Below are positions 19,741 through 50,283 of a DNA stretch of 51,302 bases, piece after piece. The first letter of the stretch is position 1. Each line of letters opens with the position of its first letter. Source of the DNA: Spirochaetia bacterium (GTDB taxonomy: Bacteria; Spirochaetota; Spirochaetia; CADAEX01). The stretch spans positions 1-51,302 of the forward strand of contig JAFXTY010000017.1 of assembly GCA_017535435.1 (NCBI GenBank), written 5' to 3'. Under the pieces are notes generated by a model. That model was given only the letters and a program-made list of their open reading frames with translations. It was not told where the DNA came from and did not search any database. A program made the position numbers and the translations under genes.

Positions 19741-20694
19741 TTATTTTTTTATTTTATACAGTAGTATATTCCACCTTTTCCGCCGCCAAGCCGGGAGGAA
19801 AATCCTGGAGACATACAGATACATCACCCCATCCTTCTCAAAGCCGGATGAACGGTAGCAGTCAGGCAGGGCGAATCCAGAATCCAGCTCCCAATCTGTC
19901 AGTTTTCTGCTCCTGGCAAGGCGCAGGGTATATCGGGCATTCTTCTCCAGCCCTGATGCGGTGGTAAGAAGCATCATGTACTTACCCTCACTCTGAATAA
20001 TATCCAGATGCCAGGGCAGTGCCTTGAACCCAGACACAGTCACGGCATTCCGGTGGGCAAAGTCCAGGGAATACAGATCCTTTCCTGTCACATATTCAAT
20101 CCGGTAGCCACCCACAGCATCCCGGTTCACATAGAACAGCCAGGAGAGGCCATCCTTCTCTATATACTTTGGAGAAAGCATGAAACAGCCTGAGCCGCCG
20201 GCCAGGTTCTCCCGATGGAGAATCCTCTTCTCCCAATGGATGCGGTCTAAGCTCTCCAGCAGCACAAGGGACTGTCTCTCCGGGCGCATGGTCTCAAGAT
20301 ACAGGATGCCATACTTCCCATTGCTGCAGAACAGGTCGGGATCATCGTTATGGTCCTTCTCCGGGGCAGGCACCAGGGGATTGATCCCAGGCCTCTCCTC
20401 CCGGAAGTGAATACCGTCGTCAGAAACAACTACAGAGGGGTTCTCCACCCTGTCATCGGTGTTAGTATAAGGGGTAAAAGAGAGTACAAACTGGGGCGAA
20501 CCGCTATCCTGCACCAGCAGGGAAGGATGCACCCCCTGCCCCGAGCCGTCATAGGTTGGAATATGGAGACGGAAGAACTTCTCCAAGGGGAGATCCTCCA
20601 GCCCGCCCTTTGGTTTTCGGGTCATGACCTTATAATTGACCCGATAAATCATATCCAGCAGGGCTTTCTTGAAGAAACGCAGCATTTTTCTCAT
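19741..20694 (-). CDS. GH43/GH32-like five-bladed beta-propeller protein
   Basis: 317 residues from ATG 20694, which overlaps the upstream stop (ATGA). No signal peptide. Repeated blade-like segments include HPSLLVQDSGSPQFVLSF, NPSVVVSDDGIHF and NDDPDLFCSNGKYGILYLE. Aspartates follow glycosidase-propeller spacing. Related proteins occur in polysaccharide clusters with unproven roles, perhaps editing or transferring sugars. Catalytic function is not certain. A GGTCA-type repeat at 20614-20648 lies in its N-terminal coding part. Confidence 0.6.
   Translation of the reverse strand: MRKMLRFFKKALLDMIYRVNYKVMTRKPKGGLEDLPLEKFFRLHIPTYDGSGQGVHPSLLVQDSGSPQFVLSFTPYTNTDDRVENPSVVVSDDGIHFREERPGINPLVPAPEKDHNDDPDLFCSNGKYGILYLETMRPERQSLVLLESLDRIHWEKRILHRENLAGGSGCFMLSPKYIEKDGLSWLFYVNRDAVGGYRIEYVTGKDLYSLDFAHRNAVTVSGFKALPWHLDIIQSEGKYMMLLTTASGLEKNARYTLRLARSRKLTDWELDSGFALPDCYRSSGFEKDGVMYLYVSRIFLPAWRRKRWNILLYKIKK
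20614..20648. repeat. GGTCA-type palindromic repeat
   Basis: TTTTCGGGTCA immediately followed by TGACCTTATAA, then TTGACCCGATAA. The outer arms pair 10 of 11 bases. The left part recurs at 26788 and 30518 with wider spacing. Confidence 0.55.
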
Positions 20695-22952
20695 CGCCGC
20701 CAGCTGTAATCGGCCAGATGTATGCCGAAATGCTCTTCCATATTGCGGATACACCGGTCATTGTTGCTGTCCTCCTTGTTAGTGTTGGCATAGTAGAGGG
20801 CCACCTTCTGGGAGCCTAGAATCTCGTCGGGCATGCTGTGGTTGGACTTGACCCACACCACAGGAATCCCCTTCTTTATAAGCATGAACTTGATCCAGAT
20901 ATCGTCCGCATCAAGGCACAGTTTCTTGATTGTATCAATGTCAAAGGCCTCCTCCGGCAGGGAGCCGGGAGGGAACAGGGTGCCGGCACCGTTGGTGGAG
21001 AGGAGGATGTGGGAAGGCTCTGTAAGCCTGGTCCAGCACTTGTCAAACTTGTCGTAGGGCTCAAGGTCGCCTCCTGAGCTGGTTATCCGGTGGACACGGC
21101 GGGCCGATACTGCCTTGGGGTTTTTCTTATATGATTCCAGAAGGCTTTCTATCATGTTCCTGTCATACATCAGGTCGTCATCCACTGTTATTATGATATC
21201 CTCAGGGTATTCCTGCATCGCGAAGAGGTACTTCTTATGAGGTCGCACATCGGCATAGCCCCTCTTGATCTCAAGGCCATACTGCTGCAGGGCCAGAAGC
21301 CGCTCTGGCAGCACTGCATCATCACACTCTTTCCCCAGGTAAAGGAGAATCTTGTCAGGCTTGACGCTCTGGGCAAACAAGCTCTTTATGCAGATATCCA
21401 GGGTGCTGAACCGGGCCGGGAAGCTGGTGAGGGATACAATGATGCGCCCCTTCTCCTCCGAACTGCACCGGAGAGGCTCCTTTATCACCATGTTCCGGAG
21501 CTTCTTAGCCTTGTATCTGCAGACAGCGCGACCGATCACCTTGCGGTAGGCGTAGCGGAGCAGCGATTTCTGCCCTGTAGCCCACATTCCCAGGATAAAG
21601 AGGAATGTCATGACAGCACCCTTTACCACTGCACTCAGGAAAAGGTTCCCTATATGTATAGGGAGGAATGCCATGACTATGAAGATGCCGCCGCAGATGG
21701 CAAGGTCGGGCAGCAGATACTTCACAAGCTCAAGGAAAGGCTTGTTGAATCCATAGCGCATAAGCACATAGTAGTTAAGGACAAAGCTTATGTTGAAGGC
21801 GACAGCCACCATATAGGAAAGTCCATCCAGGCTTCCGAACCCAAGACCAGCCAGGGTCAGGATAACCATGACCAAGGATGCAAGGAGGGTGGCCACAAAC
21901 ATCTTCCGGGTCTCCCCTATGCTCTGGAAGATGGCACCAGTGGAGGCTGTGGTCATCTGGGCCCATATAGCCAGGCTCAATATGCGGAAGCAGGATACCG
22001 ACTCGGTCCAGTTCTTTCCAAAGACAATCAGGATCGCCTCACGGCTGCAGAAGAAACAGAGCACCGTGATATAGATGCCGAAAAGGGACAGCACCTTCAT
22101 GATCTTCAGGTATTTCCGGTAGATATATTCCCGGTCGCTCTGATGGACAGCCAGGATAGGATGAAGCACCGGAGAGATAACATGGGTGAAGTTCTGAACC
22201 GGATAGAGCATGAGCTTGTAGGATTTGTCGTAGTAGCCCAGAGGCACCTGGCCAAGGAACTTTCCTATAAGGAAGTGGTCGGTGTTCCGGGAGAAATAGT
22301 TCACAAACTTGTCCAGGAACTGCCAGAAGGAGTAGCTCTTTATTCCGGCGAAGCTCTCCCTGTGAATCCTGAATGTGAAGTGGAGACGGGTTGAGACCAT
22401 ATTCCACACAAACATAAGGAAGGCAGAGATTATGGCCTGGAGCACCAGAGCATAGTACTTAAGACCGCAGAAGGCCAGAATTATTGTTATTACGCCGGTA
22501 AAGAAGCAGACCAGGATAGTTCGGAGCCCCACCAGCAGGAACTTCTGCTGCTTCATGAGCACCGCATTGGGTATGCTGTTCATAGTGTTGAAGAACAGAG
22601 CTATTGAGAGGAGGCAGCAGATAGGCCTGAGTACCGGTATGCCGTAGAAGGAGGCGATAGGCCCCGATACCAGGCAGAAAAGCAAAGCCAGCACTACGGC
22701 CAGGAAGGTGTTGAAGGAGAAGATCTCGTCAATATTCTTCTGATTCAGGTTCTGGTTCTGAATTACTCCGGCACCCAGCCCCACATCGGCGAAGAGGCCG
22801 AAGAATACGGTGAATACCGCTGTTATAGCCACTATGCCGTAATCAGCCGGGGAAAGGATGCGGGCCAGCACAGCAGTGAAGAGAATATTCAGTATGACTG
22901 TGGAATACTTGGCAGCCCCGTTTATGACAGAGGCTTTACCTATGGATATCAC
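20691..22952 (-). CDS. Wzx-type flippase fused to a C-terminal glycosyltransferase
   Basis: 753 residues from a GTG start overlapping the YfhO stop (GTGA). Residues 1 to about 465 form a WzxC-type MOP-superfamily flippase with about 12 helices (AAKYSTVILNILFTAVLARI, ILSPADYGIVAI, SYSFWQFLDKFVNYFSRNTD). After a short basic linker, residues about 500-753 hold a separate soluble domain. This starts RIIVSLTSFPARF, has the metal motif Asp591-593 in ITVDDDLMY, and later LDADDIWIKFMLIKK; it resembles GT2-like capsular transferases. A repeat-unit flippase joined to a transferase is unusual; both halves look intact. Confidence 0.8.
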   Translation of the reverse strand: MISIGKASVINGAAKYSTVILNILFTAVLARILSPADYGIVAITAVFTVFFGLFADVGLGAGVIQNQNLNQKNIDEIFSFNTFLAVVLALLFCLVSGPIASFYGIPVLRPICCLLSIALFFNTMNSIPNAVLMKQQKFLLVGLRTILVCFFTGVITIILAFCGLKYYALVLQAIISAFLMFVWNMVSTRLHFTFRIHRESFAGIKSYSFWQFLDKFVNYFSRNTDHFLIGKFLGQVPLGYYDKSYKLMLYPVQNFTHVISPVLHPILAVHQSDREYIYRKYLKIMKVLSLFGIYITVLCFFCSREAILIVFGKNWTESVSCFRILSLAIWAQMTTASTGAIFQSIGETRKMFVATLLASLVMVILTLAGLGFGSLDGLSYMVAVAFNISFVLNYYVLMRYGFNKPFLELVKYLLPDLAICGGIFIVMAFLPIHIGNLFLSAVVKGAVMTFLFILGMWATGQKSLLRYAYRKVIGRAVCRYKAKKLRNMVIKEPLRCSSEEKGRIIVSLTSFPARFSTLDICIKSLFAQSVKPDKILLYLGKECDDAVLPERLLALQQYGLEIKRGYADVRPHKKYLFAMQEYPEDIIITVDDDLMYDRNMIESLLESYKKNPKAVSARRVHRITSSGGDLEPYDKFDKCWTRLTEPSHILLSTNGAGTLFPPGSLPEEAFDIDTIKKLCLDADDIWIKFMLIKKGIPVVWVKSNHSMPDEILGSQKVALYYANTNKEDSNNDRCIRNMEEHFGIHLADYSWRR

Positions 22953-25552
22953 CCTTGTTTTCTCCCTTCTGAACGCCTTCTTATCAGCATAAAAGCGATA
23001 AATAAAAGAATTGTCGCAACAGATATGCAGAAACTGGTTTTAAGCAACGGGGTCGCATACACCAGTTCAATATCATGCCGGCCCTTTTCTATCGGCAGGG
23101 CTAAGTTCATTATATTTCCCTGCAGAACAGGTGTTTTCTTACCATCCACAAAGGCAGACCACCCTTTTGAATAGGGAATTGATATCATAAGCAACTTGTC
23201 AGCAGAAAAATCAACTGTTCCAGACACCCGGTTGATATCAAAATGAACATCTGTCCAGGCATCACGTCGCAGGCTCTCTATCTGTGCCGGAAATGCATCA
23301 AAAGGCTGACATATTATAGCCATATTATCAAATGAGTAAGTTCCCCTTCTCTCAAAGGTCAGCGTAACTTCTTTCTTCGATTCCTTTGCGTACCCAAGAT
23401 TGAATATAAAGTCATGGAAATCCACATAATATTCTTCCCGGGGAAGACAGAACTCAATCTCCCGCTGCCTGCCATTTTGTCCTATATAGAATGGAGCACG
23501 GTAATAACTGTATCTGTAGAACCAATATTTGTTTTTTCCATAGAATCTAAGATTGTTGAAGCAGAGATAGGTTTCTACATTCTCAAGCCCCTGGAAAGAT
23601 ATCTTGAGGGAAGCCTTCTCCTTGTTTACAGTAATCTTGCCATTATCAACAATTATATCTGCAGAGGGTTCAATCTTGAACTCTATTTTTTTATCATTGA
23701 AAAAGAACTCTTTGTTCTGGCCATGTGGTGCAGGATTCTCCAGGACTGCACTCTGCATAAGAATCTGCTGTTTCTCTATTTCTGTGTATTTCTCAAACTC
23801 ATTCCTCGGAATATATGAGCTGTAACTGTATCCGAAGGGAAGAGAACTGCGGCTTTTGTAGATATTGGGAAGAGATGTGGATTCAAAGCCATAGGGAATC
23901 CGGTCCTTATTTTTTGTGTAATAATACCTGACACAGGCCAGGGATTCCATCATTGCCCTGCTGTCATAATCACAGTACAGGTGATAGCTAAGGTTATTAT
24001 CCCGGCCCAGAGAAATACGGTATTCCGAGATGTCCCTATTGGTCAGCGACCAATAATACTGAGGAGAAGAAAGCCCTGACAGCAGGTTTATGTTATAGGT
24101 GAGTCTGTCCCCGGAGAAGCGGTAGAAATCTGTATCCCCAAGGCTTTTTATAGCTGTGGCCTCGTTTTCGGCCAGCACCTTGAGCCTAGCCGGCTTTATG
24201 CAGGTTTTGAGCCATCCGCTGATGTAGTATTCATAATTTGCATTTACCACTATGGCAAGGAGAGCCATGGTGACAATGGTGATATTCCGGACCCTCTTGT
24301 TATTTGTTCTCCAGAAGATAAACCATATCACAAAGAAGCTTGCGGCATTGACAAAAGAGATGCCTCTATGCAACTCCTTCGGGTAGATCAGATGGAAAAA
24401 GACAAAATAGCCGAGCACCAGGCAAGCTGCCCAGAACCATATTTTACTTTTCATCTCACAGATATTTTCCCACTGAGTGACCATTATGTAGCAGCTTAAG
24501 AGGACAAAAGCCCAGCACCAGCGCTGTGATTGATATGAAATTCCATTAAAAATCTGCCCGAAGATCGGGAAGAAGAAGAAAACAGCAGAGATAATCACAA
24601 GAATTTTTAAAAATTTGTTCTCCTTCTGGATAAAAAGAGAGACCAGCCCCATGGAAGTCACTGCCGACAGGCTCAGCCACATGGCATATCCGCTGCTTTC
24701 CGGGACAAAGAACATGAGCGGCATCTTCAGATATACTTCCGGGGCATAGAAGATATGGAAGTCAAAGCTTCCAGCCCTGGAATCTATAAAGAAAAAGTGT
24801 ACCACAGGGATGAATATTACAGAGGCCATCAGAGTGCCCACTGCCGCATAGCAGAAAAGATAAAGGATTTTCTTAAAAATAACTTTAAAATCAGTCCTGT
24901 ATCGGTATATCAGCAATGCCAGCACATAGACAGCGGTGAGCAGCACAATCATATAGAAAAAATAGAAATTGCTTATCCCTGCAATAGCGACTGCAATGGT
25001 GAACAGCACCGGTTTATGCTGGTCAAGGAGTCTGTTGATTCCAACAACAATCAAAGGCATATAAATCATAGGGTTGATGAAATAAAGATGGCGTGTGCTG
25101 TGAATGAAAGCCCATGCGGAAAAAATATAAGAGAGGACCGCAACCAGAATTCCAGTCTTTGATTTAACCTTGAAATAATCGCACAGGAAAATAAAGGCAC
25201 ATCCAGCACAGTATAGCTTTAAAAGAGAGATAAGTGCATAACAGATATACATATACTTCGCAGGGAAGAACACCGAGAGCAAGGTAAATGGATCGCCGAT
25301 GACATAGTAGTTCAGCGTCTGGAGTATATCGGCCCCCTCTCCTATGTTGAAATCCCACTGAGGCAAGGTTCCTGACAGCAATGTCCGCAGATACCCGCCA
25401 TAATAGGTCAAGGCAACAATATGCTGCTTAAAGCCGTCGCCGCCCTTTATGAATGTTGTTCCGGTGAAAATATAGCTGCAATATACAAGGAATGCAAAAA
25501 CCAGGAACAGGAATGTGAAAGCAATATATTTTGACTTTGACTTAGAAATCAT
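22949..25552 (-). CDS. YfhO-family GT-C-like membrane protein
   Basis: 867 residues. About 12 helices fill the first 480 residues, then a large extracytoplasmic domain and one final helix before the basic tail RRRSEGRK. The first loop holds GGDGFKQHIVALTYYGGYL, the family signature with acidic residues expected at a GT-C active site. In Bacillus and Listeria, YfhO-type proteins glycosylate teichoic acids. Its place directly after a glycerophosphotransferase gene (ATGA overlap) agrees with a role in decorating a glycerol-phosphate polymer outside the membrane. Confidence 0.85.
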   Translation of the reverse strand: MISKSKSKYIAFTFLFLVFAFLVYCSYIFTGTTFIKGGDGFKQHIVALTYYGGYLRTLLSGTLPQWDFNIGEGADILQTLNYYVIGDPFTLLSVFFPAKYMYICYALISLLKLYCAGCAFIFLCDYFKVKSKTGILVAVLSYIFSAWAFIHSTRHLYFINPMIYMPLIVVGINRLLDQHKPVLFTIAVAIAGISNFYFFYMIVLLTAVYVLALLIYRYRTDFKVIFKKILYLFCYAAVGTLMASVIFIPVVHFFFIDSRAGSFDFHIFYAPEVYLKMPLMFFVPESSGYAMWLSLSAVTSMGLVSLFIQKENKFLKILVIISAVFFFFPIFGQIFNGISYQSQRWCWAFVLLSCYIMVTQWENICEMKSKIWFWAACLVLGYFVFFHLIYPKELHRGISFVNAASFFVIWFIFWRTNNKRVRNITIVTMALLAIVVNANYEYYISGWLKTCIKPARLKVLAENEATAIKSLGDTDFYRFSGDRLTYNINLLSGLSSPQYYWSLTNRDISEYRISLGRDNNLSYHLYCDYDSRAMMESLACVRYYYTKNKDRIPYGFESTSLPNIYKSRSSLPFGYSYSSYIPRNEFEKYTEIEKQQILMQSAVLENPAPHGQNKEFFFNDKKIEFKIEPSADIIVDNGKITVNKEKASLKISFQGLENVETYLCFNNLRFYGKNKYWFYRYSYYRAPFYIGQNGRQREIEFCLPREEYYVDFHDFIFNLGYAKESKKEVTLTFERRGTYSFDNMAIICQPFDAFPAQIESLRRDAWTDVHFDINRVSGTVDFSADKLLMISIPYSKGWSAFVDGKKTPVLQGNIMNLALPIEKGRHDIELVYATPLLKTSFCISVATILLFIAFMLIRRRSEGRKQG

Positions 25553-26772
25553 TTCTTGAGCATCTCCACCAACTGGGTTGCAGCAATTTCCCCTGCATGG
25601 CCGAAGTTATATATCTCCTCGTCTTTGATCTTCCGGATCTTGTCCCGGTAGGCATCTGCATTGCCGATCTCAGATCTGACTATAGATGCCAGACCCCGGA
25701 TTTCCTCCGGTTTGATGATGCGGGTTATCTCCCTGCTCTTATCCAGGTCCCACACCCGGTCGCCGTCGATGTCGATGACATCGTAGCCACCGAGGTTATA
25801 TTCGGCGTTCACCAGGAATATAGGTTTCTCGAAGAGAAATGCGTAGTCGAAGATGACGCCGGATATATCGGTGACCATAGCATGGCTCCTGGCCATGCTG
25901 GCGGCGGCGGTGCGGTTCCGGTCCAGCTCTATGAGGCTGTTGCCTTTTATCTTAGCCTCCACTGCAGCGATTGTCTCCTTGTCGGATACATACATCTGGG
26001 GATGGGGCCGGAAGATGACCCGGATGCCAGCCTCAACCAGCCTGTCGATGACAGCAGTGCCATATTTGACCACTGAGCTCCGCTCGCCCCAAGCCGGTGC
26101 ATACAGCACTGTAAGGCCCTCTTCAGGCTTCTGGGGCAGCTTCTTAAGCTCCTCCAGCATATAATCATAGTAGGTGCAGCCGGTGTCCAGAAGCTCCTTG
26201 GCCTTCTCGTGCCGGTTCTTCTCTATGCTGCGGATGGCATCCTTCTGATAAGGGCCGGTGCAAAGCAGGGTATCGTAGTTGTCAAAGGCATACATCTCGT
26301 ACATGCCTATGTCAGCAGGGGCATGGAACAGATGGACATACCTGCCTGCATGCTTTGAGCGCTTCAGCATATATACATCCAGCTGCGGTGTGGTGGATAC
26401 CACTATCTTTGCCTTGATTCTGTTCATATAGGAAAGAGTCATCAGCTCCTTGCCTGGGCAGACAGCCACCACATTCTTAAGACCGCTGGTGAATACCGGG
26501 TCGTTCTTGTCGGATGTGACAAACCCATATTTGATGTCATATTTATCCAGGGCCTTCAGCACAGGCTGGAACACTTGCCAGTACTTGCCTCCCTCGGACT
26601 GGAACACCAGGTCAGGCATCTCCTTCACTGCCCCTTTCTTCCCCATGAAGACCTTGCTCCGGAGGGAATACCAGAACCCCCTGAGGGCAAAGAGCACAGT
26701 GGTGGTGATACCGACTATTGCGTAAAGCAGGAGGCTTCCTGTACCAGGATCAAGATATAAAAGAGGCATCAT
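25549..26772 (-). CDS. CDP-glycerol glycerophosphotransferase-like protein with LDPGTGS anchor (copy 1)
   Basis: 407 residues. YLDPGTGSLLLYAIVG and a single helix at the N-terminus anchor it, then basic residues and a Glyphos_transf (TagB/TagF) domain. Domain marks are LFHAPADIG with a conserved histidine, YAPAWGE, IIFRPHPQ-like VIFRPHPQMY and VTDISGVIFDYAFLFEKPIF. TagF-type enzymes transfer glycerol phosphate from CDP-glycerol, and the TagD gene two genes upstream could supply this donor. Overlaps the YidC-like/sulfatase gene by 4 bases. A paralogous pair sits at 40136-43914. Other CDP-polyols as donor cannot be excluded. Confidence 0.82.
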   Translation of the reverse strand: MMPLLYLDPGTGSLLLYAIVGITTTVLFALRGFWYSLRSKVFMGKKGAVKEMPDLVFQSEGGKYWQVFQPVLKALDKYDIKYGFVTSDKNDPVFTSGLKNVVAVCPGKELMTLSYMNRIKAKIVVSTTPQLDVYMLKRSKHAGRYVHLFHAPADIGMYEMYAFDNYDTLLCTGPYQKDAIRSIEKNRHEKAKELLDTGCTYYDYMLEELKKLPQKPEEGLTVLYAPAWGERSSVVKYGTAVIDRLVEAGIRVIFRPHPQMYVSDKETIAAVEAKIKGNSLIELDRNRTAAASMARSHAMVTDISGVIFDYAFLFEKPIFLVNAEYNLGGYDVIDIDGDRVWDLDKSREITRIIKPEEIRGLASIVRSEIGNADAYRDKIRKIKDEEIYNFGHAGEIAATQLVEMLKK

Positions 26773-29696
26773 TTAGTCACCTGCCAGTTTTTCGGGTCAG
26801 TTATCGAATCTGTGACCTTATAAATTGTATACTTGGCAACTCCATCGGTGCGGAAATTGGAACGGGAACTTACAAAGTCGGCCCGTGGACTTACCCCAAC
26901 ATGCACATTGCTGCCGACATAGGATGGCTGCAATCCCAATGCCTTCTGCAGTGCGGCATTGATATCGCCATTGCTGGCAAAGGTGTCGTCCACCTTTACA
27001 GAGCCGGATGCCCTGGCCGGTTTTACCATGAACAGGGAGTTCAGCCGGTTGAAGGTATCCCTGGGAAGTGCCGATTCTATCCCCTCTGGAGCCAGGGGGT
27101 TGTTGTCCGAATAATCGTTTCCATGGTCAGAAACCAGGATTATAGTTGTATTGTCGTAAAGGCCCTTGGCCTTGAGCCAGTCAGTGTAAGCCACTATAAG
27201 GGCGATGAACTTCTTGGCGCTGTAATAGGCGCTCTCCCCGAAGATAAAGCTTTTATGAACCTCGTCCGGGTACTGGCTGTTGAAGTCCACCAGAGTTCCT
27301 TCCTCCCCCACTCCATAAGGGATATGGGTGAAGCAGGAATGGAAATATTTGAATGTGTTTCCCTGGGCATCGCTGTTTGAGATCTCAGGAAGCAGATCCA
27401 GGAAGGAATACTCGTTAAAGACGTGGGAGCGGACATACCAGAATAGGGCAACCCGGGAGAAAATAAGCCAGCCTCCGTCGTTATAGATGACAGGCTTAAG
27501 GAAGTATGGTGCCCCCTGGAAGATGGTAAGCATAGTGAAAAGATGGGGCTGGTTCACCTTTCTCTCGGAATCGGACCTGATGTCCCGCACCTTTTCCCAA
27601 TAGCGCTCGTAGGGATCCAGCGCAGAGCTAGCGGTTCCCTCCAAGGTTGCACCCTCCAGATAGGCGGCGCTGCCGTTTACAACAGCCACTTTATAGCCCT
27701 GCTTCTCAGCCTGCCGGAACAGGGTGGAGGCGGCACTGTTCACCTTCTCGTCGCCGCTGCCCGGCATAGAGTTCATAGCCAGGGGCAAATACTCCTCCCC
27801 AGCAAAGATGGAGGGCATGGAGGTGGCAGTCTCAGTGGCTGCCGCCAGCATATTGCGGTGCCATGTGAAGCCGGAAAGCTTTTCCTTATATTCAGGACAT
27901 TCAGAAAGAATGCGCTCCATATAACCGCCAGAGAACATGTCGGCGACTATAAGAACCACATTCTGTCCAGTCTTTGAATAACCATTTATTAGGTCGTTGT
28001 CGGCAGGCAGCCGGACACTGTCACCAGCCACAGCTGCCACCGGCTTCTCAGAGAATGCATACTTTATGCTCTTTACCCCGGCAAAACCGCAGAGGCAGAT
28101 CAGAATCACAGCAATACAGCTCCTGCACTGGGCCGGATACCTGCGCACAATCACACCGGCGGCAATGCCGGAGGCGCACAGGATAACCACATCCAGGCAG
28201 TAAAAAAAGGCAGGGATCTTTTTAAGCTGGTCTGCGTTTCCCAAGATTGTCTTATCCAGCTCGCCGAAGTTGTTGGGCAGAATGTACTGATACAGTACCA
28301 GGACAAGGACAGCAGCCACAGAGACCAGCACAAGGCTCTGCCTGTTCTGCACCAGCTTCCAGAGGACAAAGGCCGCAAGCAGAAGCACAGCTGCCACCGG
28401 CAGGTTTGAGAGAAGCAGGTATCCAAGGGAAATCCCGGTCTCGGCCGGAGATGACAGGAACACAAGAACTGGCGAGATAATGGTTACAAAAAGGACCAGG
28501 AAAGCAGCTGCCCAGCGGTACAAAGCCAGCAGGGCGGCAGGTTTGGCCACAGATGCCCGCTGAATCTGGCATCCGGCGCGGCCCTTTGCCATATAGCAGG
28601 CCGAAATATAGAGCAGGATGTCAGCGAATATGGTGGAGACAAGCACCAGCTTACGTAGGAGTCCTCCTTCTGCATGGGTCATCTTGCCATAGAAGCCGAA
28701 GGCGGCAAAGCCCAGATAACAGACGCCGAAGAAAAGCAGCTGGAGTACAAAGGTCCAAGAACAGCCCTGCCCCTGTTGCCGTGACAGCCGGAGCCGTCTA
28801 AGCCACACTATAAAAGCAGCCACCACAGAGACAAAGGCAACAGCCGATGTCACCAGGAACAGCTTTTCAAAGGTTTCCTTATTAAAAATAATCTGCCAGC
28901 ACTGGAATGTGAAAATGGCGGCAACAACAGCAAAAATATAGAAACTTTGGGTCAGACAAGGCGTTACCGCATCCCTGAAGCCCTGCACATAATCCTTGAA
29001 ACTCTTGTCCTCCGGATCAGGCACATACTTCTCGTGGGGGAAAAGCCTGAGGAATATAAGGCTCTTGCCCACTGAGAACACATTGTTCATGGTCCAGTAG
29101 AGCACCAGCGCCGCAGGGCTGGCATACAGGAGCAGCAGGAACACCCCCGCCATCACATACAGCTCAACTATGTCCTTTGCCCTGCTCCCCCTCATGTAGA
29201 TGCTTGAGGAGACTATGTTTATCACAGTCATGGCTATAGGGAGCAGGTTCAGACCCCACAGGAGGCCATCCGGCACAGCGAAGTCCTTTATGAACAGCCA
29301 GCTCACTCCCCTGTAGGGCTCATAATGGCTGAGGAGGTGATAGGCTGCGAAGAAGAATGGTATCTGTATAAGGAGGCCGAAGGAGGTGCGGAAGGAGCTG
29401 GCGGCAGTGTAGCCCTCCAGCCGGTGGGTGGCCTTTATCATGCAGTACCGCTTCTGCCCGGTGTAGTACCTCTTTATGTAGGAGAGGCGCCTCTTCATCC
29501 GCTTCTCCACCTCCTGCTCCTTCCGCTTCCACACCTCTGCGATGTAGAAAAGGGGGAACATGATTATAGTCACGCTTAAAGAGAGGAGTATGATGGAGAG
29601 GCCGTAGCTCCCGGTCAGATGCACATAGGTGCGGAACAAGAAACCCAGCACTGTCTCTATGGGCTTTATTATGAGAAGATAAATTATGTTCATCAC
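26769..29696 (-). CDS. YidC-like domain fused to sulfatase/phosphoglycerol-transferase-like domain (copy 1)
   Basis: 975 residues. Residues 1-230 are Oxa1/YidC-like: GSYGLSIILLSLSV, LLIQIPFFFAAYHLLS, LPIAMTVINIV and SPAALVLYWTMNNVFS. The groove arginine of insertases is replaced by Thr43. Further helices follow to about residue 560. The C-terminal third is an alkaline-phosphatase/sulfatase fold: metal Asp586 in VLIVADMF, nucleophile region TATSMPSIFAG (Thr623 likely), FTHIPYG, and Asp857-His858 in VSDHGND. This resembles lipoteichoic acid synthases and phosphoglycerol transferases. Starts at GTG 29696 or ATG 29693, right after tagD. Activity on membrane-lipid-derived glycerol phosphate is inferred. 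Confidence 0.8.
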   Translation of the reverse strand: MMNIIYLLIIKPIETVLGFLFRTYVHLTGSYGLSIILLSLSVTIIMFPLFYIAEVWKRKEQEVEKRMKRRLSYIKRYYTGQKRYCMIKATHRLEGYTAASSFRTSFGLLIQIPFFFAAYHLLSHYEPYRGVSWLFIKDFAVPDGLLWGLNLLPIAMTVINIVSSSIYMRGSRAKDIVELYVMAGVFLLLLYASPAALVLYWTMNNVFSVGKSLIFLRLFPHEKYVPDPEDKSFKDYVQGFRDAVTPCLTQSFYIFAVVAAIFTFQCWQIIFNKETFEKLFLVTSAVAFVSVVAAFIVWLRRLRLSRQQGQGCSWTFVLQLLFFGVCYLGFAAFGFYGKMTHAEGGLLRKLVLVSTIFADILLYISACYMAKGRAGCQIQRASVAKPAALLALYRWAAAFLVLFVTIISPVLVFLSSPAETGISLGYLLLSNLPVAAVLLLAAFVLWKLVQNRQSLVLVSVAAVLVLVLYQYILPNNFGELDKTILGNADQLKKIPAFFYCLDVVILCASGIAAGVIVRRYPAQCRSCIAVILICLCGFAGVKSIKYAFSEKPVAAVAGDSVRLPADNDLINGYSKTGQNVVLIVADMFSGGYMERILSECPEYKEKLSGFTWHRNMLAAATETATSMPSIFAGEEYLPLAMNSMPGSGDEKVNSAASTLFRQAEKQGYKVAVVNGSAAYLEGATLEGTASSALDPYERYWEKVRDIRSDSERKVNQPHLFTMLTIFQGAPYFLKPVIYNDGGWLIFSRVALFWYVRSHVFNEYSFLDLLPEISNSDAQGNTFKYFHSCFTHIPYGVGEEGTLVDFNSQYPDEVHKSFIFGESAYYSAKKFIALIVAYTDWLKAKGLYDNTTIILVSDHGNDYSDNNPLAPEGIESALPRDTFNRLNSLFMVKPARASGSVKVDDTFASNGDINAALQKALGLQPSYVGSNVHVGVSPRADFVSSRSNFRTDGVAKYTIYKVTDSITDPKNWQVTK
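26788..26828. repeat. GGTCA-type repeat
   Basis: TTTTTCGGGTCA, 16 bases, then TGACCTTATAAATTG near the 3' end of the YidC-like/sulfatase gene. Both half sites are the same as at 20614 and 30518, and the coding frame reads YKV across the second half in all three. Confidence 0.55.
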
Positions 29697-30140
29697 TTAC
29701 GGATTGACAACATCTCCGTTTACAATCTTTATAACCTGAGTGGTGGAGATACCCTGGGTCCTGGGCACTACTACAATCCTGTGCTGCTCGTATAGATGTC
29801 CGAACCAGTATTTTACATATTCCAGGTCATCGGCAGCTACAAATGCAGCATCTATCTTGTATTTATCCATAAAATCGTTTACTGCAGTCTCGTCATAGGC
29901 ATGAGGCCCCCAGCTGCGGTCCACAATCAGGGCATCGTCCACATAGCGGCAGGCTTTGATTATCTCAAGCCTCTCCTCCTGGTTGAAGATAGGCTTCCGC
30001 TTCTCCTGCATCGCCAGTTCGTCGGAGTCAATGGCAACCACCACTTCCTTGAACTTTTCCTTAGCCCGTTTTAAAAGACGCACATGCCCCACATGAAAGA
30101 GGTCAAAAACACCGTTCACAACGCATCTGTCGTATTTCAT
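29697..30140 (-). CDS. tagD: glycerol-3-phosphate cytidylyltransferase
   Basis: 147 residues, the usual length of TagD. Makes CDP-glycerol from CTP and sn-glycerol 3-phosphate. The nucleotidyltransferase HxGH motif is His16-Val-Gly-His19 in VFDLFHVGH, and the second signature ISTT is at 131-134 in TQGISTTQ. The basic KRKPIFNQEER loop fits TagD and the related ethanolamine-phosphate enzymes. The glycerophosphotransferase genes at 25549 and 40136 make CDP-glycerol the likely product; CDP-ethanolamine is the main alternative. Ends directly before the YidC-like/sulfatase gene. Confidence 0.85.
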   Translation of the reverse strand: MKYDRCVVNGVFDLFHVGHVRLLKRAKEKFKEVVVAIDSDELAMQEKRKPIFNQEERLEIIKACRYVDDALIVDRSWGPHAYDETAVNDFMDKYKIDAAFVAADDLEYVKYWFGHLYEQHRIVVVPRTQGISTTQVIKIVNGDVVNP

Positions 30141-31468: not shown

Positions 31469-32713
31469 CTATTTTGAACCGAAACCGGTAAGGATAGTCT
31501 TAAGTGTCTTGACTGCAATCAGGGCATCCAGCCAGAAGCTCATATATTTGATATAATAAAGGTCGTAGGAGAGCTTTTTCTCGGTCTCCTTAGTTCCGGC
31601 GGCATAGCCCTGGACAACCTGTGCCCAGCCTGTGATTCCAGGAGGCACCATATGCCGGTAGGCATAGAAAGGAATCTCCTTCTCAAACTCCTTGGCAAAG
31701 CCCACCTGCTCCGGCCGGGGACCTATTATGCTCATCTCTCCCTTAAGGACATTTATAAGCTGTGGAAGCTCATCTATACGGAACTTCCGGAGGAAGCTCC
31801 CCATGGGGATGATCCTGCTGTCATGGGAAGAGGTGAACTTGGCACCCTGGGCCTCGGATTCGGTTATCATAGTCCTGAACTTGTACATCTTGAAGGGTCT
31901 GCCACCCTTTCCTATCCGATCCTGGATAAAGAAGGCAGAACCTTTTGAGTTCAGCTTGATGATGATGAAGGCAAAGAGGGAAAGCACCAGGATGATCGGG
32001 GAGAACAGGATAATGACACAGCACTCGGCAAAGTGCTTTATGGCAGAATAGATCTTGGGCACCTTGAAGCCTGACACTATACCGCTTGAAAGGTGGTGGA
32101 GCGATATGCGCCCGGTCACCTTCTCGTATACAGCCGCCGCGTGGTAGATAGGGATATTGGAAAGGCTCACATAAGCTATGAACCGCATCCATTCCGGGGG
32201 TATCTGTTCGTGATAGTCTATGATTATGCCGTCACACTTCTTATGAAGCTCCGGATAACGCAGCATCTCCCATCTGCGGCTCCCCTTCTCGGCCAGCTTG
32301 AAGCCCAGCCCTATAGGACAGATCAGATAGAATAAAGTCTTAGGATTGCGGTAGAGATAAAGCCCCAGGCCGATCCAGAACACAGTAAAGAAATAGAAGA
32401 TGATAAGATATTTTCTGGAATAGTAGGTTCTGCCTATAGTGATGAAGGAAAGGAGCAGAGCCATGACCATGGTGATGACAAATATGGCTATGCTCAGCTG
32501 CTCCCGGAAGGAGAACCGCTTTATCCGTAAAGATGCGGTGCCTGCGGCAAGGAAAGCCAGGGAGGTAAGGAAAAGGAAGGTTCTCCGGTAGAAGTACTTC
32601 CAGAAACAGATATCGTGATAGACCAGAAAGTTGCATATGAACAGTGTGGCAAAAGCACCGGCCACAATCCAGGCAAGAGCTTTTATCATGGAGCTGTCTA
32701 TCTTATTCCTCAT
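31469..32713 (-). CDS. polyprenyl-phosphate sugar-phosphate transferase (initiating, WcaJ/RfbP-like)
   Basis: 414 residues from ATG 32713, chosen because AAGGAG lies 7 bases upstream; it overlaps the previous gene by 11 bases. Four N-terminal helices and a central non-catalytic region precede the bacterial sugar transferase domain (from about residue 225): KMYKFRTM, RKFRIDELPQLINVLKGEMS, IIGPRPE and PGITGWAQV. This transfers a sugar 1-phosphate to undecaprenyl phosphate and starts the repeat unit. It is the only such enzyme seen in the window. Confidence 0.92.
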   Translation of the reverse strand: MRNKIDSSMIKALAWIVAGAFATLFICNFLVYHDICFWKYFYRRTFLFLTSLAFLAAGTASLRIKRFSFREQLSIAIFVITMVMALLLSFITIGRTYYSRKYLIIFYFFTVFWIGLGLYLYRNPKTLFYLICPIGLGFKLAEKGSRRWEMLRYPELHKKCDGIIIDYHEQIPPEWMRFIAYVSLSNIPIYHAAAVYEKVTGRISLHHLSSGIVSGFKVPKIYSAIKHFAECCVIILFSPIILVLSLFAFIIIKLNSKGSAFFIQDRIGKGGRPFKMYKFRTMITESEAQGAKFTSSHDSRIIPMGSFLRKFRIDELPQLINVLKGEMSIIGPRPEQVGFAKEFEKEIPFYAYRHMVPPGITGWAQVVQGYAAGTKETEKKLSYDLYYIKYMSFWLDALIAVKTLKTILTGFGSK

Positions 32714-33818
32714 CCACCTTCTCCTTAAGGTATGAATAAATATAAACAAACGCAATCACAGGCAGATAAATGTTGGTTCTGTACCGTATTCCTGCCCCCG
32801 GGTTAATTATACCCTGTCCATACTGTACAAACAGCAGAAGAAATACGGAGTTACACCCCAGAAGGAACCACTGATAATAGTTCCTGAACTGTCGGAACAG
32901 AGCAACAGGGAATCCCCAGAGCATAACAACTGCTGTCAATATTATAACACCACTTTCCATAAAAGAGAACAGATGGAGGGGCGATGTGGCGCACTCGGCC
33001 CAGGTGGGACCCCAGAAAGCCAAAGGGAGAAGATAAGGCATCTTGCGGAAGAAGTCAAACTGCTCAATGAACAGATGACTCCTGGTAGAGCGGGCAGAGA
33101 CCCGGGGTACATTCTGGGCATAGAAGGCATAGGAATCCAGCTGATACCTGAACAGATACATTCCCACAGCCACTGCAGCTATAAGCCCTGCCAGCATAGC
33201 AACATCCCACTTATATGGGACATTGACGCAGCGCCTGAAAACAACATAGCCGAAGGTGATAAGGACAAATGGTATATATGGTTTTTTGAGCACTATCACC
33301 AGGTAAAGGGCTACAAAGAACAGAATATCCGGTTTGAAGGGCTCCTTTTTATACAGCTTTATCAGCTCGGCACACAGAATTCCCATGCCGAAGACCACCA
33401 GACACTCCTTACCCCCTATAGAGGACCATATATTGAAGGATGGGGAATAGCATAAAAGGATAAGGAGAATATATGCCCTGGAATCGCTTTTTGCGGCAAG
33501 AAGAAACCGTCTTATCCCCACATATCCTATGGCAGAGCAGGCACAGAAGGTAAGAATCTCAAAATGGCAGATAAAATGGATTGAGCTTATGATGGCAACC
33601 CCAAGGACATCCTTCTTAAGGAGGATCATAAGCCCGAACTTCTGATAAAGCATGGGCAGCAGTCCATATTCATCATAAGGAAGCCCATACACGAAAGTAC
33701 CTATATCTGCAAGAATAGTGAACTTTGCTATGACAAACTTTGCCAGGAATGCCATAAGGATCCGGTAGAAAAAGAGACCTGTAATCAATAGTGCAGCTAT
33801 ATCTTTTTTTCTGTTCAA
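32703..33818 (-). CDS. putative Wzy-like polysaccharide polymerase
   Basis: 371 residues and about ten transmembrane segments, with a large loop between helices that includes NVPRVSARSTRSH. A conserved-looking IGGKECLVVFGMG and a late GAGIRYRTNIYLPVI resemble membrane proteins annotated as O-antigen or exopolysaccharide polymerases. The start is TTG at 33816-33818, preceded by AAGG at good spacing. It is the first gene of the long minus-strand operon. Polymerase function is an inference from topology and neighbours; sequence families here are poorly conserved. Confidence 0.5.
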   Translation of the reverse strand: MNRKKDIAALLITGLFFYRILMAFLAKFVIAKFTILADIGTFVYGLPYDEYGLLPMLYQKFGLMILLKKDVLGVAIISSIHFICHFEILTFCACSAIGYVGIRRFLLAAKSDSRAYILLILLCYSPSFNIWSSIGGKECLVVFGMGILCAELIKLYKKEPFKPDILFFVALYLVIVLKKPYIPFVLITFGYVVFRRCVNVPYKWDVAMLAGLIAAVAVGMYLFRYQLDSYAFYAQNVPRVSARSTRSHLFIEQFDFFRKMPYLLPLAFWGPTWAECATSPLHLFSFMESGVIILTAVVMLWGFPVALFRQFRNYYQWFLLGCNSVFLLLFVQYGQGIINPGAGIRYRTNIYLPVIAFVYIYSYLKEKVDEE

Positions 33819-33864: not shown

Positions 33865-34587
33865 ATGCCGATCATTCAGTTGGAAAATGTCAGAAAGTCG
33901 TATCACCTGGGGAAAACCCTGGTTCCAGCCATCAAAGGGGTTTCCTTCTCCATCGATGAAGGAGATTTTGTCTCAATCATCGGCCCTTCCGGCAGCGGCA
34001 AATCCACTATCCTGAACATGATAGGGTGCATCGATGTCCCCACCCAAGGGAAGGTGATCATAAACGGCCAGGAGACTTCGGGCCTCTCGGACCGGGAGAT
34101 CACAGCTCTCCGCCACGATGTCATCGGCTTTATCTTCCAGTCCTTCAACCTGCTCCCTGTGCTCAATGTATACGAAAACATCGAATTCCCCTTCCTTATA
34201 GGAAAAACAAGGTTCACAGCCCAAGAAAAGCTGGAGCACAAGGAATATATCGAATCGCTGATTGAAGCTGTGGGGCTTACCCGGTGGACAACCCACAAGC
34301 CGGCAGAGCTTTCAGGGGGCCAGCGTCAGCGTGTGGCGATAGCCAGAGCCCTGGCTACCAAGCCAAAGGTGGTGCTGGCAGATGAGCCTACCGCAAACTT
34401 GGACAGCAAGACCGGAGAAGATATCATTGCCCTTATGAAGAAAATCAACAAAGAGCTGAAGACCACATTCATCTTCTCCACCCACGACCACAACATCTTC
34501 TCTATTGCAGACCATGTGATCCGCCTCAAGGACGGCCTGGTGGCAGAGGATTTCAGAAACCAGCAGAAAGCTCCACAAACAAAGTGA
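33865..34587 (+). CDS. MacB/LolD-type ABC transporter ATP-binding protein
   Basis: 240 residues. Walker A GPSGSGKST (40-48), signature LSGGQRQRV near 149, and Walker B VVLADEPT near 170 are all intact; the family spacer TALRHDVIGFIFQSFNLLP confirms the LolD/MacB group. It probably powers the two permeases at 36515 and 37807 for lipoprotein, peptide or glycolipid transport. It is encoded on the opposite strand, convergent with their operon, and its end overlaps the barrel gene by 35 bases. Its own promoter and weak ribosome binding site suggest separate control. Confidence 0.92.
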   Translation: MPIIQLENVRKSYHLGKTLVPAIKGVSFSIDEGDFVSIIGPSGSGKSTILNMIGCIDVPTQGKVIINGQETSGLSDREITALRHDVIGFIFQSFNLLPVLNVYENIEFPFLIGKTRFTAQEKLEHKEYIESLIEAVGLTRWTTHKPAELSGGQRQRVAIARALATKPKVVLADEPTANLDSKTGEDIIALMKKINKELKTTFIFSTHDHNIFSIADHVIRLKDGLVAEDFRNQQKAPQTK

Positions 34588-35764
34588 ATGCAAGCTTGCT
34601 GTCGATAGGGAACTCTTCGTAGAAGTCCTTGTCCAGTTCCTTATCACCATAATGCCATGGGATTGCCATACGTATCTTGACATGCTTCCATGGAGAGATG
34701 GAGAAGCCTCCGATAAACTGCCCTGCATTGTCTGTTACAGAATGGAGCCACTTGAAGCCCATTCCTATAGGGGAGCCGAAAAGGTTGTCAAAGTCGGTGG
34801 CAAGACCTATACAGTGGTCTATGTCATCCTCTATGCGGCCATCGTAATAATATTCCCCGTAGAGCTTGATATTAGTCCATTCCTTGAAGAAACCGGCCAG
34901 AGCCTCGTGGGTTATATCTCCCTCGTCGGAGCGGTTCAACACATAGTCGGCAAAGAGGTCGGTACCAAGTATCACAGTCTTGACAGAGCCAGAATAGCGC
35001 TGACCGTCTAATTCATTATACAGCATGGCTACAGAGAAGTTTATGGGCCCCAAGGTCTTGTCGGCATGACCGGCGAAGGAAAGGTCGCCTTTATGAAGCT
35101 TGTTGTCATTCCGGAACACCCGTTTCTTATAAAGGGAGACCAGAGAAACACCATCCAGAATATTGGGCATAGTCATGCGGAAGGCAGTGCCATCCTCTGC
35201 ATCCTCCATAAAGTTGGCAGGGCGGAAAAGCCTTCCCTGCCCCCAGGTCATATAGAACTTACCAAGACGGAAGTATGACTTGTCCAACCAGTTATAGTCG
35301 CAGTAAAGCTCGTCGAAATCCAATTTGGACCAGACATCGCTGCCATTATCGGAGTTCATCTCTGTCTTAAGCTTACCGAATATCCGGATAGTTGGGTCGG
35401 GCCGTGCATCAAAAGAGATGGTGGCTTTGGAATAGGCACCTGCCACCTTGTCAGGATATCCGTCAAAAGGCTCGTCGTTCCAGCCGATACCACCGCCGGC
35501 CCTGACTACAAAGTCACCGCTTACCACTATCTTCTTGCTCTCCTCGAACTGATTACGGTAGTCAATATCGGCAGGCTGCTCTACCACAATATCCTCGGCA
35601 GGGTCATCAAAGACAGAGTCAAAATCCTCGTCATATTCAGACTGCTCCGATTCCAGCCCTTCACTGCCCCGGGCAACCTCAAACTCAGCACCCCAGGTCA
35701 GGACCGGCAGAAAGATCAGAGAAAGAAAAATTAAAATGTACTTACTTAGTGTTGACTCTCTCAA
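34553..35764 (-). CDS. predicted outer-membrane beta-barrel protein, DUF1302-like
   Basis: 403 residues from TTG 35762-35764, supported by AAGGA 5 bases upstream. Signal peptide ending LTWGAE, a short acidic linker (residues 30-65, EYDEDFDSVFDDPAEDI), then barrel strands with YFRLGKFYMTWGQG and a terminal aromatic (SAGF). This strand pattern is like porin-like proteins encoded next to LolA-like and MacB-type genes. It overlaps the LolA-like gene by 23 bases. It may be the outer-membrane component of the adjacent exporter. Confidence 0.65.
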   Translation of the reverse strand: MRESTLSKYILIFLSLIFLPVLTWGAEFEVARGSEGLESEQSEYDEDFDSVFDDPAEDIVVEQPADIDYRNQFEESKKIVVSGDFVVRAGGGIGWNDEPFDGYPDKVAGAYSKATISFDARPDPTIRIFGKLKTEMNSDNGSDVWSKLDFDELYCDYNWLDKSYFRLGKFYMTWGQGRLFRPANFMEDAEDGTAFRMTMPNILDGVSLVSLYKKRVFRNDNKLHKGDLSFAGHADKTLGPINFSVAMLYNELDGQRYSGSVKTVILGTDLFADYVLNRSDEGDITHEALAGFFKEWTNIKLYGEYYYDGRIEDDIDHCIGLATDFDNLFGSPIGMGFKWLHSVTDNAGQFIGGFSISPWKHVKIRMAIPWHYGDKELDKDFYEEFPIDSKLAFTLFVELSAGF

Positions 35765-36512
35765 GATATTCCTTAGTATACAGGGAATCGGGCTGTTTGT
35801 TAAGGGATGGATTTTTTATATCCACGGTGGTGCGCTCATATTCGGTCTTGTCCCCCACCTTGCGGAACACCAGGTGATCCTGGATTATGATCTTCGCAGG
35901 AACCCAGCGCTTGCCCACCTTCTGGTAGCTTGGAAATGCAGATGTCCTCATAAGCTGTCCCGAGAGGCTGTAGTCCTCCAGCTTCCGCACAAGATTGTCA
36001 TCCGACACCCATATCTTCACCTTCGGGAAGGAGACGCTTTTGGTGTTGGCCTCAAGATCAAACACAGTGCAGTTGAACTTTCCCAGCTTCTCCTGCTTTA
36101 CACTTTTAATATCATAGTTGCCCGAGTAGTTGGAGCCGGTAAAGTCAGATACCCGGAAGCTTGAGTTCTGGAACCGCTCCTTGGCGCTGGTGAAGGTGAA
36201 GCCCTTGCCTATAGGGTCATAGAGCCACAGGTTGTTCCCCTGCTTAAGGTAGCCCTTGCCCTTGTCAGCCACAGGCTGAAGCACCAGGACAACAAACTTC
36301 TCCTCGCTGTCCCGGCGGAACATGGCCGCAACAGTTGTGGAGGAAGATCCGTCCGGATCCCGCTTGACAATAGTATATTCTGCAGAAAGATCCGACTCCT
36401 TGAAGGTGACCAGCTCGTCCACCTCCTTGAGCATCTTTACATAATCGGGCTCTGCATAGACAGAGCAGACCATTCCTAAAAGCAATAATGCAACAATTAT
36501 CTGTTTTTTCAT
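35742..36512 (-). CDS. LolA-like outer-membrane lipoprotein-sorting protein
   Basis: 256 residues from ATG 36512, preferred to a TTG two codons earlier because AAAGGA stands 6 bases before it. Signal peptide ending CSVYAE. The mature part carries NLWLYDPIGKGF and KVGKRWVPAKIIIQDHL, features of the COG2834 family of periplasmic lipid- or lipoprotein-binding proteins. Located directly after two MacB-type permeases and before a barrel gene, it is likely the periplasmic carrier of that exporter. Confidence 0.82.
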   Translation of the reverse strand: MKKQIIVALLLLGMVCSVYAEPDYVKMLKEVDELVTFKESDLSAEYTIVKRDPDGSSSTTVAAMFRRDSEEKFVVLVLQPVADKGKGYLKQGNNLWLYDPIGKGFTFTSAKERFQNSSFRVSDFTGSNYSGNYDIKSVKQEKLGKFNCTVFDLEANTKSVSFPKVKIWVSDDNLVRKLEDYSLSGQLMRTSAFPSYQKVGKRWVPAKIIIQDHLVFRKVGDKTEYERTTVDIKNPSLNKQPDSLYTKEYLERVNTK

Positions 36513-36514
36513 AA

Positions 36515-37804
36515 TCAATCCTTTCTAAGGGCCTGGGCCGGAGGCATCTTAGATGCCTGGTCTGCAGGTCTCCAGGCCGCAGCTAATACAGCCGCCAGCA
36601 TGAAGAACAGGTTCAATGCCACAGAACGGAGCCCTATAAAGCACTGGAGCCTGCCGTTCTCGGTAAACATTCCCGCCGCAGTAACCTTACTTAAATCAAA
36701 CAATCCCACAAAGTGAAAGGTTACAAGACCCAGGGCAAATCCAAGGGCCGAGGCAATCAGAGCCAGGGCTGCGGCCTCATACAGGAATATCCTCTTCACA
36801 TCCGAAGCCTGCATGCCGATAGCCCGCATGGTACCTATCTCCCGGGTCCGCTCGTAGACAATAACCCGGTAGGTGTTGAGAATTCCTATCATAACTATGA
36901 CAAGGAAGATGAAAAGGACAAAATAGGTACAGAGGAGGAATGCGTCCAGCAGGCTCTTGAGCTGCTCCAGCTGGGCGTTGACAGACATCACGGCAGCCAC
37001 CTCCTTGTCGTTACCCCGGTTTCCGGATCTGTATTCACTGAAGTCGTGACGGGTATGGATAGGGGGGAACACATCCTTGGTCTTGGCAAACTCAAGTCTG
37101 AGCCTCTCGGTAATCAGGGGGATATTGCTCCCCTCCTTGGCATATACTGCAATCTCGGTGGCCCAGCCGGGATCCTTGTCCATTATTATATTTAGCTCCT
37201 CCCGGTTCATATAGGCGGCATATCCGAATATATTGGTCTCGTCAAAAATGCCCTTGACTATCATGTTCTCGGTGTTGTACTGGCCCTCTTCTGTCTTCAG
37301 ATAGATTATGACGTCATCCCCCAGCCTTGCTCCTAAAAGACGGGCCGCCTCGGTGCTTATTATGATGCCGTTCCTGCCCTCAGGACCGGAAAGGCCCTCG
37401 ATTCCACCCTCCACAAAAGGGAGCTTGGAAAGTTCCTTCCCCTCGGTCTCAACATCAGCCCCTATGACACGGAGCAGCCTGATATAGTTGCCGCCGAAGA
37501 AAAGCCTCACTTCCTTGCCGTAGTAGACAGAGCGGGGGGAAACTGCCCTGAAGGGGAGCCGGGAATGGTTGATTATATCCACGTAGCTTTTGGAATCGGG
37601 AATGGACATACCAGTGTTTTCAAAGCCGTAGACAATGATATGGCCCGAGAAATAGCGGGCAGCCTTGGTCTTTATAGTCTCCAGGGCACCGTAGGAAAGG
37701 CCTGTCAGCACTGTTATGAGCATAAAGCCCACAGCCACAGCCAGAGCCATGAGGGCATAGCGTTTGCGCTGGAGAAACAGGTTCCGGAGGGCAAAGAGGA
37801 ACAT
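36515..37804 (-). CDS. MacB/FtsX-type ABC permease
   Basis: 429 residues. One N-terminal helix, a periplasmic domain of about 250 residues, and three C-terminal helices of the FtsX domain, with YERTREIGTMRAIGM (the coupling helix that meets the ATPase). Begins FALRNLFLQRKRY, typical of the LolC/E-MacB group. Sits 2 bases after its partner permease gene and probably forms a heterodimer with it and the ATPase encoded at 33865. Confidence 0.9.
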   Translation of the reverse strand: MFLFALRNLFLQRKRYALMALAVAVGFMLITVLTGLSYGALETIKTKAARYFSGHIIVYGFENTGMSIPDSKSYVDIINHSRLPFRAVSPRSVYYGKEVRLFFGGNYIRLLRVIGADVETEGKELSKLPFVEGGIEGLSGPEGRNGIIISTEAARLLGARLGDDVIIYLKTEEGQYNTENMIVKGIFDETNIFGYAAYMNREELNIIMDKDPGWATEIAVYAKEGSNIPLITERLRLEFAKTKDVFPPIHTRHDFSEYRSGNRGNDKEVAAVMSVNAQLEQLKSLLDAFLLCTYFVLFIFLVIVMIGILNTYRVIVYERTREIGTMRAIGMQASDVKRIFLYEAAALALIASALGFALGLVTFHFVGLFDLSKVTAAGMFTENGRLQCFIGLRSVALNLFFMLAAVLAAAWRPADQASKMPPAQALRKD

Positions 37805-37806
37805 GA

Positions 37807-40130: not shown

Positions 40131-40135
40131 AAGCT

Positions 40136-50268: not shown

Positions 50269-50283
50269 AAACTCAAAATTTTA

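Follow-up and report, generated by a model that had tools for sequence, protein, structure and literature searches.

Gene content of the locus

The window analysed here, a stretch of 51,302 nucleotides from a Spirochaetia bacterium, contains two genes in which a YidC-like membrane domain is fused to an AP-superfamily domain. The first, designated YS1 (26769-29696(-), 975 aa), begins with a GTG start codon and encodes three parts: a YidC/Oxa1-like core that includes the cytoplasmic C1 helical hairpin (residues 1-225, 29022-29696(-); PF02096 and predicted fold), a linker with nine predicted TM helices (28017-29021(-); model and hydropathy) and an AP-superfamily domain of the phosphotransferase type (residues 561-975, 26772-28016(-); PF00884 and the folds of PbgA/EptA/MCR-1/LtaS). 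The second, YS2 (41353-43914(-), 853 aa), is situated approximately 12 kb from YS1 and joins a YidC-like core to an AP-superfamily domain through five predicted TM helices.

Each fusion has its own TagB-like gene. Partner 1, a TagB/TagF-like CDP-alcohol phosphotransferase (PF04464; 25549-26772(-)), has a start codon that overlaps the YS1 stop by 4 bp, and TagB-like partner 2 (PF04464; 40136-41356(-)) overlaps YS2 by 4 bp. The PF04464 scores of the two proteins were 39.8 and 31.1 bits, against a cut-off of 22.1. Neither YS2 nor the partner genes appeared in the first-pass annotation of this DNA.

The start of YS1 is abutted by a gene for a TagD-like cytidylyltransferase (29697-30140(-)), whose nearest solved relative is the glycerol-3-phosphate cytidylyltransferase 1coz. 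Also present are genes for a YfhO-family membrane protein that overlaps partner 1 by 4 bp (22949-25552(-)), a Wzx-type flippase with a C-terminal GT2 domain (20691-22952(-)) and a bacterial sugar transferase of the type that initiates glycans (31469-32755(-)). The fusion 2 cluster contains an IspD/TarI-like cytidylyltransferase (47932-48648(-)), an NAD-dependent epimerase/dehydratase that overlaps it (46967-47935(-)) and a LicD-family phosphotransferase (46147-46974(-)).

The YidC-like core

The Pfam model 60KD_IMP (PF02096) matched residues 31-215 of YS1 with an E value of 2e-22 (80.4 bits, cut-off 35), and a search of the whole genome with this model identified three places: the housekeeping YidC (a 589-aa frame), YS1 and YS2. 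The curated cut-off of TIGR03592 (yidC_oxa1_cterm), 84.3, was not reached (80.6 and 70.3 bits). A model of the whole of YS1, built from 92 aligned fusions, had a pLDDT of 82.8. The Foldseek list for the full-length protein was dominated by the AP domain, and the Y core (residues 1-225) was therefore modelled separately with AlphaFold (pLDDT 92.7, pTM 0.85). The order of helices in both models is YidC-like, with an N-terminal helix, TM1, a cytoplasmic hairpin (H31-77, H80-93) and four further TM helices. When the Y core alone was compared with the PDB, ranks 1-11 were all YidC or OXA1L and the remaining matches had E values above 1; the best match was Bacillus halodurans YidC (3wo7, TM-score 0.71-0.72), and Escherichia coli YidC (6al2) scored 0.67-0.68. 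The insertase-like domain proposed in the first-pass annotation is thus borne out by both the Pfam match and the predicted fold.

Alignment of the Y family revealed residues that are new with respect to YidC and are invariant or nearly so (N160, N204 and R103). Invariant polar residues (S39, N160, N204 and N205) occur both within the helices and at the cytoplasmic face, and the residues of the C1 hairpin are unusually conserved and differ from those of housekeeping YidC. A proposed equivalence of N160 with Q187 of B. halodurans was dropped, as the two positions are about one helical turn apart.

Loss of the groove charge

A profile alignment to PDB sequences placed Thr43 of YS1 (codon 29568-29570(-)), at the site of the conserved YidC groove Arg/Lys, opposite R366 of E. 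coli and R72 of B. halodurans. The alignment places Ser42 of YS2 (codon 43789-43791(-)) at the same groove position. The housekeeping YidC of the source genome (G000:C22, L001) carries Lys at this site (LTIVVKIVLYPL), as against Thr in the fusion, so the substitution first noted from the YS1 sequence holds when the two proteins of one genome are aligned.

The comparison was extended with MAFFT to 121 distinct fused and eight free-standing Y domains, collected from Spirochaetota, Bacteroidota and Pseudomonadota, which were aligned with nine housekeeping YidC domains. Position 43 was Thr in 76 of the fusions, Ser in 29, Asn in 12, Gln in three and Cys in one. The solo domains, some of which are fusions split by contig ends or frameshifts, had Thr (four), Ser (three) or Asn (one), and the housekeeping proteins had Lys (seven) or Arg (two). 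It is apparent that Arg or Lys occurs at the groove site in none of the 129 fused or solo domains of the collected set; a divergent fusion found later, in genome G642, has Arg.

In YidC, the positive groove charge serves groove hydration and is described as strictly conserved in the family, the members named in that source being protein insertases (PMC8920935). According to the same report, R366 of E. coli YidC is dispensable if residue 517 is hydrophilic or aromatic, and YidC2 of Streptococcus mutans (W234) needs its Arg despite the Trp. In the Y family, W201 is invariant and lies opposite Y517 of E. coli and W244 of B. halodurans. Because of this invariant Trp and the polar replacement, and because Arg is dispensable in E. 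coli with an aromatic residue 517, the loss of Arg is no proof in itself that insertase activity is lost. Of the arginine argument made in the first-pass annotation, therefore, the loss of charge stands, but as evidence for reuse of the scaffold it counts for less than was supposed, given the dispensability of Arg in E. coli and its retention in G642.

The AP-superfamily domain

The Pfam Sulfatase model (PF00884) matched residues 578-864 of YS1 (E value 4.5e-10, 39.8 bits, cut-off 25), and the score for YS2, 22.1, was slightly below the cut-off. The metal ligands D586 (codon 27939-27941(-)), H791 (27324-27326(-)) and Asp857-His858 (27123-27128(-)), as well as the nucleophile Thr623 (27828-27830(-)), are invariant across 92 fusions, in agreement with the earlier description of these residues as intact. 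A Thr nucleophile fits AP-superfamily phosphotransferases such as LtaS/EptA. A formylglycine (type I) sulfatase was ruled out by the lack of a C/S-x-P-x-R motif and the presence of Thr623 in 92 of 92 sequences, and a canonical LtaS by a score of 14.9 bits with NCBIfam NF053595, for which the equivalog cut-off is 970.

The nine predicted TM helices, the PF00884 match and the AP folds also agree with the earlier proposal that extra helices join the core to an extracytoplasmic phosphotransferase-type domain. The number of helices in the linkers is odd (nine in YS1 and five in YS2, by crude hydropathy), which would place the AP domain, with its catalytic residues, outside the membrane. The earlier label of phosphoglycerol transferase holds as to the phosphotransferase type; specificity for glycerol is suggested only by the TagD and TagB neighbours, the LtaS model being far below its cut-off and phosphonate genes lying beside the module elsewhere.

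Apart from YidC proteins, the fold matches of the full YS1 model were PbgA/YejM, MCR-1, EptA and LtaS, and sequence profiles reached LtaS, MCR-1 and sulfatases no more than weakly. These best structural neighbours are phospholipid-dependent or lipid-binding proteins. They would accord with an LtaS/EptA-like reaction, with PG or PE as the source of the AP domain's donor, the TagB-like protein engaged in a separate, parallel step and the Y core assisting the folding of the enzyme. Such a scheme is nevertheless improbable, the Y-AP family occurring without TagB in almost no genome.

Distribution, fission and decay of the fusions

Full-length fusions with 85-89% identity to YS1 were found in sister genomes, and about 110 were found in all, from three phyla; the loci were collected with peptide patterns from one protein, so that divergent members are under-sampled in this number. 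Since PF02096 and PF00884 are common families, an ordinary duplicated YidC might have been joined to a sulfatase with which it has no connection, whether by chance or through misassembly of two genes. Given the number and spread of the homologues, their overlapping operon neighbours and their grouping in one long-branch clade, this explanation is refuted and its probability is negligible.

In the phylogenetic tree, the Y family forms one clade on a long branch, with the solo forms nested among the fusions. A free Y protein of 229 aa is present in G007 and G009, where it overlaps or abuts a TagB-like gene; G007 encodes its AP protein (721 aa) in a separate gene of the same cluster. As a split fusion leaves Y beside TagB and AP elsewhere, Y belongs with TagB, and it is the fusion that links Y to the AP domain. 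A fusion in G009 (L129, 11029-13632(-)) has a degenerate Y core that retains 13 of 32 key residues and has lost the cytoplasmic hairpin, and the same genome has a free, intact Y; every other Y core keeps at least 27 of the 32. Judging from this one case, a single intact Y per cell may serve in trans.

The fusion of G642, a gammaproteobacterium of the order of Neptunomonas, is 1052 aa long (L144, 3864-7022(-)) and lies by a TagB-like gene with the motif YLDPASG. It is the basal branch of the family clade (a single sequence; clade support 0.92) and a possible transitional form. As it combines the groove Arg with the same gene partners, loss of Arg was not required for the module and probably followed its origin, unless the G642 fusion was an independent event. 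No kin of this Arg-keeping fusion were detected beyond G642 itself in 399 genomes of that phylum, and a tblastn search of plasmids with it gave no match.

Two other arrangements look like repeated duplication and decay. In Treponema putidum (L041, 1-9000), solo AP and solo Y genes alternate beside a full fusion, and a Y copy at G464:C1:2070708-2071379 contains two in-frame TAA codons.

Association with TagB-like transferases

The partner proteins have an N-terminal membrane segment with a motif of the type Y-[IL]-D-P-[GA]-x-x-S, in which Y, D, P and S are invariant in alignment A2. It reads YLDPGTGS in partner 1 (26729-26757(-)) and YIDPGTGS in partner 2 (41319-41347(-)). A degenerate DNA pattern for YxDPGTGS had exactly two matches in the source genome, one per partner, and the reversed control pattern had none there.

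By far the commonest neighbour of the fusions is a PF04464 gene; 65 loci contain 71 such genes, of which 60 directly adjoin a fusion. A Y gene lies on the same strand for 69 of these 71 genes, within 50 bp in 55 and overlapping or abutting in 41, in either order. Among 118 relatives, the Y family and the YxDPGTGS TagB-like family were found in the same 22 genomes, with one further weak TagB match (4e-16). Across the phylum, 99 of 393 genomes have both, four only Y, three only TagB and 287 neither (Fisher's exact P = 7e-84, a value that ignores shared ancestry), and most of the genomes with only one of the two are incomplete assemblies. The pair is also found side by side in Bacteroidota and Neptunomonas. 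Pairing of the Y domain with a YxDPGTGS TagB-like transferase is close to obligate, and is a new observation.

Co-occurrence and adjacency fit a Y core that is a dedicated insertase, or one that is a docking platform for TagB, as well as they fit an element for the passage of substrate. As a dedicated protein insertase or chaperone, the core would insert the N-out segment of TagB that carries YxDPGTGS, possibly together with the helices of the AP protein, with no passage of substrate. YidC inserts substrates of the N-out type, and the N-terminus of TagB, with one TM helix and a short N-tail carrying an invariant Asp, resembles them. The retention of the YidC fold, the C1 hairpin and a polar groove agrees with such a role, as do the position of solo Y beside TagB and the presence of W201, an aromatic residue of the kind beside which the E. 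coli Arg can be dispensable (PMC8920935). The role is all the same somewhat unlikely; it leaves unexplained why nearly every AP copy has its own intact Y core (up to six per genome, versus one to three TagB) and why N160, N204 and R103 are (near-)invariant and unlike YidC. As a docking platform, the core would hold TagB beside the AP domain and nothing would pass through it. This would account for the co-occurrence, the adjacency, the Rosetta-stone fusion and the distinctive conservation of the C1 hairpin, but S39, N160, N204 and N205 include polar positions within the helices that pure docking would not need, and we regard it as distinctly unlikely.

Donor supply

Other genes recur at the related loci: a fusion of PEP mutase with a cytidylyltransferase domain in 15, a phosphonopyruvate decarboxylase in 13, an NTP_transf_3-aminotransferase fusion in 32 and an iron alcohol dehydrogenase in five (e.g. 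L059 of Bacteroidota). These genes point to a route to CMP-aminoethylphosphonate or, by inference, CMP-hydroxyethylphosphonate (PMC6697681). In the source genome (G000), a search for PEP mutase gave no PF13714 match; phosphonate chemistry, common in the relatives, is thus unsupported here, and the donor is more likely to be CDP-glycerol or a CDP-polyol. Across the loci, the gene context strongly favours a role for the module in surface phospho-alcohol or phosphonate chemistry.

Possible function of the module

The reading that we prefer, at a little under even confidence, makes the fusion a component of a three-part module by which phospho-alcohol or phosphonate groups, activated with CDP or CMP, are attached to the glycans of the cell surface. 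By homology, a cytidylyltransferase would make the activated group (TagD-like for YS1, IspD/TarI-like for YS2 and of the PntC/PEP-mutase type in other genomes). With its YxDPGTGS membrane segment as anchor, the TagB-like partner would then transfer the group at the cytoplasmic face to an acceptor that is probably membrane-bound. The charge-free Y core may dock the TagB-like enzyme and may offer, in its polar, lipid-open groove, a path by which the headgroup or the lengthening acceptor crosses the membrane. At the outer face, the AP-fold domain, whose predicted chemistry is that of its homologues, would capture the group on Thr623 and transfer it to the glycan. By analogy with three-component glycan modification, charging would fall to TagB, flipping or hand-off to the Y core and transfer to the AP domain.

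The fold and domains, the invariant catalytic residues, co-occurrence, adjacency, fission, the degenerate Y core of G009 beside a free intact one, the odd TM count, the recurring supply genes and the occurrence of the motif once per partner all speak for the three-part module. Against it, co-occurrence and adjacency are matched equally well by an insertase or a docking role, the G642 module retains the groove Arg, and the cluster already contains a Wzx flippase, so that an extra translocator for the main glycan is not obviously needed. A more specific proposal, which we advance only tentatively, is that a branch of Oxa1/YidC left protein insertion to serve as the element for membrane passage in a widespread system of extracytoplasmic phospho-alcohol or phosphonate transfer, moving lipid or glycan headgroups and binding the TagB-like enzyme via its YxDPGTGS segment.

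Relationship to known systems

The Y core shares with YidC/Oxa1/Alb3 (PF02096; 3wo7, 6al2) the order of the five-TM core, the C1 hairpin, a TM-score of about 0.7 and an aromatic residue (W201) at the 517/244 position. It differs in lacking a positive charge at the R366/R72 site (129 of 129 collected domains, with G642 as the exception), in its new invariant Asn and Arg residues, in its fusion to an enzyme and in its tie to a TagB-like gene. Like LtaS/EptA/MCR-1/PbgA-YejM, the fusion has an AP fold outside, behind a TM bundle, with a Thr nucleophile and Asp, Asp-His and His ligands; unlike them, it is far below the LtaS cut-off, has a YidC core attached and has a linker of five or nine TM helices. 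The partner has the RPHP motif and matches the family profile of TagB/TagF/TarL (PF04464; Cps3D 8qoy, TagF 3l7i), but has the extra N-terminal YxDPGTGS membrane segment and an almost obligate YidC-like partner.

Systems of the GtrA/GtrB/transferase type (PMC11127046) likewise comprise a cytoplasmic charging enzyme, an element for membrane passage and an extracytoplasmic transferase. The module proposed here from genomic position, often present in several copies, would differ in using phospho-alcohols or phosphonates in place of sugars and a YidC fold as the passage element. The PntC phosphonyl-tailoring clusters (PMC6697681, Treponema denticola) resemble the related loci in that genes for PEP mutase-cytidylyltransferase, phosphonopyruvate decarboxylase and NTP_transf_3-aminotransferase recur beside the fusion; in a search of that paper by terms, the YidC-like/AP/TagB part was not mentioned. 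A search of the open-access literature found no paper that mentions a YidC-sulfatase-domain fusion, a tie between YidC and CDP-glycerol in spirochetes or the two Pfam families in combination.

An old protein-insertion machine thus seems to have been recruited into the decoration of the cell surface: a large clade of the YidC family without the groove charge is tied to surface phosphotransferases through shared occurrence, gene overlaps, fusion and fission. Movement of cargo other than protein by the Y core would give the YidC fold a second function; if the core inserts only TagB, it would be a dedicated single-client insertase. Either function is testable in culturable treponemes and E. coli. 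The module also offers candidates for the missing steps after nucleotide activation in the treponemal pathways for phosphonates and teichoic acid-like glycolipids.

Other features of the window

A LolA-like lipoprotein-sorting protein and two FtsX permeases are encoded between the two modules (35742-39351(-)), with an ABC ATPase nearby (33865-34587). A 318-aa protein without a Pfam match (39258-40214(-)) is weakly similar to 2-aminoethylphosphonate transaminase (E value 1e-8), in a genome without PEP mutase. The gene at 44683-46146(-), which adjoins fusion 2 within a glycan cluster, encodes a radical SAM protein of the B12-binding type, with HpnJ as its closest relative. At 48652-51240(-), where two ORFs (538 and 318 aa) have no Pfam match, the G+C content drops to 28-38%, and this segment is possibly a recent acquisition.
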